NCBI RefSeq assembly: GCF_001939115.1
Contig: NZ_MQTZ01000011.1
Location: 60,864-113,996 of the forward strand
Length of the DNA: 53,133 nt
Origin: Leptolyngbya sp. 'hensonii'
Lineage (GTDB): Bacteria; Cyanobacteriota; Cyanobacteriia; GCF-001939115
Direction: 5' to 3'
Shown: positions 1-43,658 of the stretch, piece after piece
How the letters are laid out: each line of letters starts with the position of its first letter
How positions within the stretch are numbered: position 1 is the stretch's first letter
Notes under the pieces: generated by a model
Seen by the model: the letters and a program-made list of their open reading frames with translations, nothing else
The model's database searches: none
What the model was told of the DNA's origin: nothing
Translations under genes and position numbers: made by a program

Positions 1-94
1 CACCCCCAACCCCCTCCCCCTCTCCCGCTGGGAGAGGGGGCAGGGGGGTGAGGGCAATCAGGAGTTTATCGGTGTTATTTAATTCTCATTCCTA
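1..94. repeat. Partial copy of a MITE-like palindromic element
   Basis: The first 94 bases are almost the same as 43296-43395. A C-rich arm and a G-rich arm form a strong hairpin (CTCCCGCTGGGAG at its tip). It is followed by an AT-rich end running to CTCATTCCTA at 85-94. The last 47 bases or so are identical to the second copy. The left part lies outside the window, so its left end and target duplication cannot be seen. It sits about 140 bp upstream of the psb35-like start codon. Confidence 0.8.
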
Positions 95-41353: not shown

Positions 41354-41488
41354 GCGGGCGTGCAGACGAGGGGAATGAGGCAATAACCAAGGCCAGTCAA
41401 GGTTTCGTTGGGTTCCGCCAACACTTCACTAACCCGCTACGACTCAATCCGCAGGGGGCAAAAAAAGCGGGAGGGGCAGAGCCTGGGT

Positions 41489-41746
41489 ATGAGGGAGGGG
41501 CAGGAAGCGATCGTCACTTCCACTTCAGCGATCGTTAGGAATGGAGAAGCTGTCGTCACTTCCACTTCAGCGATCGTCACTTCCACTCCAGCAGTCGTCA
41601 CTTCCGCTGAAGCGATCGTTAGGAATGGAGAAGCAGTCGTTACTTCCGCTGAAGCTGTCGTCGCTTCCACTCAAACTGTCGTTACTTCCACACCTATTTC
41701 AGACCATCCGACCTGTGCGAACCTATGGCAACTAGAATTTACCTGA
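41489..41746 (+). CDS. Possible heptapeptide-repeat ORF
   Basis: If translated from the ATG at 41489 this gives 85 residues, most of them nine heptads of the type EAIVTST, SAIVRNG and EAVVTSA. GGGAGG-like purines surround the start but no classical site is well placed. The opposite strand is also open. It may be non-coding; the repeat explains the open frame. It ends one base before the Uma2 stop on the other strand. Confidence 0.25.
   Translation: MREGQEAIVTSTSAIVRNGEAVVTSTSAIVTSTPAVVTSAEAIVRNGEAVVTSAEAVVASTQTVVTSTPISDHPTCANLWQLEFT
41504..41692. repeat. 21-bp minisatellite, nine units
   Basis: Nine direct 21-bp units. Seven carry GTCACTTCCACT-like ends (type A) and two carry GTTAGGAATGGA (type B, units 2 and 6). 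Many begin GCGATCGT or a variant, close to HIP1. The type pattern A B A A / A B A A / A shows an 84-bp higher-order period. Confidence 0.9.
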
Positions 41747-42565: not shown

Positions 42566-42793
42566 CGATCGGGTTCAGCCACAATCTTTTGACACCATAA
42601 TATCAAGCGAGAAGATTACGAGGTAAAGTTTGCAACCACTGGTGCAAGTCGTCCAGGTGGTTGAAGTCAAGCAATGCCTCTCCCAAATCCTCCAGTTGAA
42701 TTAGGGATAGAGCCCGCACCTGGGCTTGAACCTCATCCGGGATAGTGCTCTGGATGCGACGGCTCAGTTGCCGCAAGATCAGGGTCAACGCTT

Positions 42794-42849
<56 letters not shown>

Positions 42850-43260
42850 AAAATATCCTGATAGATGACGGATTCGCGCATGGTCCTCTCCCGAAACAGT
42901 TGACGAATTACCTTTTTCTTAAACCGTAAGCCTGCCAACAATTGAACGTAAGCGGAGACTTCCCGCTGTTGCTGACTTGATTCTATCCTGTCCACCTGTT
43001 GGGCGATTTCTGCCAACAGTTGTTCTGGATTGGAAGCAGCAGCCAGAGGAGCCAGGGGTAGCAATGCCGGGTCCTGCAAGAAAAAGGCCGGGTCTTGTTC
43101 CCACATAGGAATGATGCGATATTCATGGCGAGTTGAAGCCGCCACAAATGCAGTTTCGATCGGGGTGCCCTCTGCTGGAGGCGTCAGCAGCACCACTGCC
43201 TGAGTCACGGGCAGCCGATAGAGACGGTGCAGCCGGATGAAGTAATCCAGCATCCTAAGG

Positions 43261-43391
43261 ATCGTGGATTTAATAACTCCGAAATTTTCAGCCCTCACCC
43301 CCAACCCCCAACCCCTCCCCCTCTCCCATCGGGAGAGGGGGAGGGGGGGTGAGGGCAATCAGGAGTTTATCGGTGTTATTTAATTCTCATT
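43261..43391. mobile_element. MITE inserted in the Rpn-like gene
   Basis: About 131 bp between direct repeats CCTAAGG at 43254-43260 and 43392-43398. It has imperfect terminal inverted repeats (left ATTTAATAACTCCGA, right, in reverse, ATTAAATAACACCGA) and a GC-rich central hairpin (CTCTCCC ATC GGGAGAG). It carries no ORF of its own. From 43296 on it matches the left edge of the window. Whether CCTA belongs to the element end is uncertain, since CCTA also follows the other copy. Confidence 0.85.
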
Positions 43392-43658
43392 CCTAAGGGG
43401 TAAAGGCGGATCTGACTCCAGCTTGACCTGAAACTCCAAGTGCAGGATCTGCTCTTGCAAACCCAAGAAAATGACTGAATCAGCCCGAATCGGCTCAATG
43501 CTCAACTCTGTTTTGAGCACTTCGACAGCAGGGGGTAGATAGCCCAAAATCCAGGCCGCAAAGCGATCGGGATACTTCTCTGAAAGCAGCTTGCAGACGT
43601 TATCGAAGGACATTTAAGGGACGTAGATGTTTGGCTGGCTGACGCGATGAGATTCCGT

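Follow-up and report, generated by a model that had tools for sequence, protein, structure and literature searches.

Gene-disrupting MITEs that lack a matching resident IS have already been described in cyanobacteria, and it is well supported that the event reported here is of this ordinary kind. Anabaena sp. 90 has 147 MITE copies, 132 of them intergenic and 15 in disrupted ORFs, and its type II MITEs are hairpin-forming elements of 77–541 bp whose terminal inverted repeats (TIRs) are shared by no resident IS (PMC3542288). Nezha is an active MITE in cyanobacteria according to the title of Zhou et al. 2008 (cited in PMC10969869), and as far as that title goes our element is like it in being a cyanobacterial MITE. 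Among larger elements, the IS1031 subgroup of IS5 has a TNA target and exclusively 3-bp repeats (PMC12016507), and the NuwaII elements of the related eukaryotic PHIS superfamily have a C/TNA/G target (PMC4482050).

The window analysed here is a 53,133-nucleotide stretch of the Leptolyngbya sp. 'hensonii' genome (positions 60,864 to 113,996 of contig NZ_MQTZ01000011.1), in which a 135-bp insert lies inside a DUF4351/Rpn-like gene; we are highly confident that this insert is a non-autonomous DNA transposon (MITE). It resembles the type II MITEs of Anabaena sp. 90, as these are described, in being a short hairpin with TIRs that is mainly intergenic and has no matching resident IS, but its host belongs to another order. 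It shares the TNA target and 3-bp duplication of the IS1031 subgroup and the C/TNA/G target and probable 3-bp duplication of NuwaII (PMC4482050). Unlike it, however, the IS1031-subgroup element is an autonomous IS of 857 bp with other ends (PMC12016507), and NuwaII is eukaryotic and encodes a transposase.

The interrupted gene and its empty site

The interrupted gene occupies 42603..43613 on the minus strand of the window and has 290 codons once 138 bp are discounted. Its N-terminal half is an ORF of 77 aa (43380..43613, minus strand) whose last few residues and stop belong to the element, and its C-terminal half, which includes DUF4351 (42603..43358, minus strand), is open from a TTG in the element and includes about 35 element-derived residues. 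Joining the flanks without the 138 bp restores the open frame of 290 aa that had been proposed (...LPLR/MLDYF...), and the original prediction was also right that a net insertion of 138 bp keeps the frame, which is blocked solely by an internal TAA (43382-43380) and TGA (43361-43359), both on the minus strand. The C-terminal half matches DUF4351 (PF14261) with 74 bits against a gathering score of 25, and the joined protein matches the Rpn family model TIGR01784 with 31.9 bits (E 1.1e-7), which is below its curated cut-off of 52.1. Positions D45 and E60-x-Q62 are in the N-terminal half; D45 and E60 are conserved and Q62 is nearly invariant in the homologue alignment, and by inference these three residues fit a PD-(D/E)XK nuclease. 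The joined protein has no sequence match among solved structures. The gene had been called an Rpn/DUF4351 nuclease gene: the DUF4351 assignment stands, "Rpn-like" is a reasonable label with a sub-threshold family score, and "nuclease" is an unproven prediction based on that sub-threshold score, the conserved residues and DUF4351. Two repeat features were seen in the same region. Within the DUF4351 gene, window positions 42795-42848 form a minisatellite of 12-bp units that encode EGRQ repeats, and its repeat number varies among homologues; a short ORF of degenerate VTSTxAIV/SLPLQ-type repeats (41408-41746) adjoins the DUF4351 gene region.

An intact, uninterrupted paralogue that is 86% identical is present in the same genome (C4:48289-49125). 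Its sequence at the insertion point is ATCCTAACGGGTAAAGG, and at this point the window has ATCCTAAGG, the insert and then GGTAAAGG; in a longer comparison the paralogue has AACATCCTAACGGGTAAAGG and the joined window flanks have AGCATCCTAAGG/GGTAAAGG. Fifteen homologues from other cyanobacteria were aligned, and all of them continue without a break across the insertion point between R74 and M75 (PLPLR/MLDY), beside which P72, R74, D77 and Y78 are invariant, and homologues from many named cyanobacteria are likewise contiguous there. The insert is found in no homologue, and since the paralogue and homologues are uninterrupted, the uninterrupted gene is ancestral. The murG neighbour is carried by no homologue locus outside the host genome in our synteny comparison, so it shows no empty site at an orthologous position. 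The empty site that we see is a paralogous or homologous one rather than an allelic one. Because the assembly is a draft of 77 contigs, some of which end within copies of this MITE (C27:5-91 and the end of C17), one could suspect that the insert results from misassembly or a sequencing error at a repeat. On both sides, however, it is joined without a break to unique sequence in a contig of 178,754 bp, and the paralogue has exactly the empty site expected; we consider an artefact scarcely credible. The host genome thus provides both a recent gene-disrupting MITE insertion and its exact empty site. The insertion would inactivate the Rpn-like/DUF4351 gene, a loss that is probably tolerated because paralogues remain.

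Extent of the element and its target duplication

The heptamer CCTAAGG is present on both sides of the insert, at 43254-43260 and 43392-43398 (repeat starts 138 bp apart), as had been noted in the original prediction, and an 8-bp repeat, TCCTAAGG, begins one base earlier, at 43253 and 43391. This had been taken for a 7-bp target duplication, a reading ruled out by the flanks of 37 copies of the element in the genome. In 31 of the 37 the flanks match over exactly 3 bp, where about 0.6 copies would be expected by chance, and in none over 4 bp or more; the other six lack a perfect 3-bp match. The target consensus over these copies is C (27/37), T (36/37), a middle A or T, A (35/37) and G (29/37), and so the duplicated triplet is nearly always TAA or TTA, with C before it in 27 and G after it in 29. 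The 37-copy flank comparison therefore gives C/TWA/G as the target and 3 bp as the length of the duplication, correcting the target rule from 7 bp. At the window copy the duplicated TAA lies at 43256..43258 on the left and 43394..43396 on the right (both plus strand), inside the two apparent repeats, and the apparent 7-bp CCTAAGG is made up of this TAA, the terminal GG (left) or CC (right) of the element, and target bases that match by chance.

The outer ends of the element, set by reading these flanks, are GG...CC, and the genome copies and flank comparison place its body at 43259..43393 on the plus strand (GGATCGTGG...CTCATTCC), a length of 135 bp instead of the roughly 131 bp first proposed. 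The hairpin and imperfect TIRs of that proposal are both present. The left TIR (43259..43276, plus strand) is GGATCGTGGATTTAATAA and the right one (43376..43393) reads GGAATGAGAATTAAATAA on the minus strand, and these 18-bp ends are complementary at 13 of 18 bp. They are of the GGA...ATTAAATAA type and enclose a C-rich/G-rich palindromic core at 43291..43356 (CCCTCACCCCCAACCCC...CTCCCATCGGGAG...GGGTGAGGGC). Folded as RNA the insert forms a long hairpin of -82.3 kcal/mol (z -8.3), which was equalled in stability by none of 200 shuffles, and folding as DNA gives a z of -6.1. Among the open reading frames of the 135-bp element there is no transposase ORF, in agreement with the original prediction. 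Comparison with Rfam gave sub-gathering chance matches to hairpins and nothing more, the plasmid and phage collections contained no match to the element, and no matching paper was recovered by a literature search with the repeat sequences. The element thus has the features of a bacterial MITE, namely a size below ~600 bp, TIRs, many copies, a target duplication of fixed length and an empty site.

Copies in the host genome

A search of the 5.94-Mb host genome (77 contigs, the draft assembly that holds the window) found about 41 copies or fragments of the element, of which about 30 are nearly full length with at least 90% identity. The mean pairwise identity among the 29 best copies is 96.9%, and the amplification of the family is on this account recent. 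The transposition that had been proposed is borne out by these copies, the 86%-identical empty-site paralogue and the contiguous homologues; neither an insert shared by all orthologues nor a lack of other copies and empty sites, the outcomes that would speak against it, was found.

The family resides mainly between genes. Among the 37 copies only the window copy clearly interrupts a long open frame (289 codons). Copy L008 interrupts a 175-codon frame, L023 and L025 are weak cases of about 110 codons each, and none of the remaining copies has a frame that is open for 45 codons or more on both sides. These data bear on the idea that the insert is a domesticated coding palindrome, translated in frame within the protein like the Rickettsia palindromic elements. 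The net insertion is indeed a multiple of 3, an ORF runs from the TTG of the element into the C-terminal half, and RPE-like in-frame fusions are known (PMC10969869). However, the in-frame TAA and TGA block translation through the insert, no homologue or paralogue has the insert, and almost all the other copies are located away from long ORFs (only 2 of 37, the window copy and L008, are in a substantial frame), and we judge domestication very improbable. Strong hairpins, many copies and a mostly intergenic location would also suit a REP/REPIN-like palindrome moved by a RAYT (Y1) transposase, but such an element would not be bounded by TIRs, and a precise 3-bp duplication and defined TIRs are found across the 37 copies. 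A precise target duplication and TIRs are typical of DDE transposition, and single-strand Y1 transposition leaves the target unduplicated. We give a REP/REPIN origin very little credence, and take the element to be a MITE in what follows.

Several other features of the family were observed in this genome. Window positions 1-92 are part of another copy of the same MITE (locus L029, C11:60823-60957), whose flanks match imperfectly (TAA/TAG). A second subfamily has the ends GGAACGGG.../GGAACGAG..., and two mosaic MITEs, L032 (C28:26201) and L033 (C41:501606), have ends of both subfamilies and a common core, which suggests recombination through the G-rich hairpin. Contigs C3, C4, C17, C27, C51 and C62 stop inside a copy of the family or directly next to one, so the hairpin or the repeat appears to break the assembly.

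The putative transposase and the spread of the terminal repeats

The ends, the copy number and the fixed 3-bp duplication point to a DDE transposase, which would act in trans on both ends, cut or copy the element, and make 3-bp staggered cuts at a preferred C/TWA/G target. In the window the element struck a CCTAAGG in a gene that has several Rpn-like/DUF4351 relatives in the genome, and it brought in 138 bp with two in-frame stops. Movement in trans had been asserted in the original prediction; it is an inferred step, and our search for a transposase with matching ends found none. The end pattern expected of an autonomous partner is TNA-GGAWYGNGRATTWAATAA. No IS with these ends was present among the detected transposase loci or TIR pairs of the host draft genome, where the DDE_Tnp_1 loci have other ends or no detectable ends and DDE_Tnp_4 has no match. 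TIR-pair spacing in four TIR-rich genomes gave no IS arrangement among the matches listed, and a non-exhaustive search beside about 95 sampled transposase loci (about 65 PF01609 from six TIR-rich genomes and 30 PF13359, nearly all from other cyanobacteria) found no matching ends in an IS arrangement. Among the elements sampled, those of the ISL2 type (DDE_Tnp_4) have AGACYT... ends and flanks that are not TNA, and other IS-like inverted repeats that were recovered begin GAGG.... Two loci of another cyanobacterium, L208 (1860-1953) and L236 (1427-1475), were considered as autonomous partners and rejected, as they resemble IS5-like insertions that are unrelated and bear GACCTCCTGCA ends; the MITEs in which or beside which these IS5-like elements sit belong to the same TIR superfamily. 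A type I MITE has a resident IS with the same ends, and none was found in the host draft genome; the element is a type II MITE in the usage of PMC3542288, in that no matching resident IS was found in this draft. A draft assembly may lack multicopy ISs, so the absence of an autonomous partner is unproven.

The MITE copies have the TNA target and 3-bp duplication that characterize the IS1031 subgroup (PMC12016507), and from the C/TNA/G target and 3-bp duplication we slightly favour an IS5 (IS1031-like)/PIF-Harbinger-related enzyme as the putative transposase. Since no autonomous partner with these ends was found, this assignment to IS5 rests on the target site only. A DDE transposase of a non-IS5 family is a serious possibility, to which we would give somewhat less than an even chance: our search recovered no IS5-type element that has these ends, the ISL2-type elements have AGACYT... 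ends with non-TNA flanks and the other inverted repeats are of the GAGG... kind, but in the literature a TNA or C/TNA/G target with 3 bp is the mark of the IS5-IS1031 and PHIS groups.

When at most one mismatch is allowed, 53 of 291 cyanobacterial genomes contain the terminal repeat TNAGGAAYGRGAATTAAATAAM, and it is present in at least 34 of 130 genera; a reversed control pattern gave essentially no matches (one among the matches listed). Many of the loci that we read are short elements of about 65–215 bp with one GGAATG-type end and one GGATCG/GGATTG-type end. The C/G-rich core alone has some match in 30 of 59 genomes, with similar cores in many other cyanobacteria. In the plasmid and phage collections the terminal repeat alone gave weak matches; 14 of them lie on a Kovacikia minuta plasmid, where a short MITE-like pair flanks one of the 14 places. 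These elements may form an old, phylum-wide cyanobacterial MITE superfamily with asymmetric ends (GGAATGAGAATTAAATAA / GGATYGYGRATTAAATAA), a C/TNA/G target and hairpin cores that are interchangeable, for which no autonomous partner is known; this is a tentative proposal that we consider rather unlikely as it stands. The same ends occur in at least 34 of the 130 sampled genera and no autonomous element was found, and the hunt for the transposase is thus a defined and answerable question. If the superfamily reading is true, the transposase that moves these MITEs across many genera would be either undescribed or a domesticated enzyme of the host.
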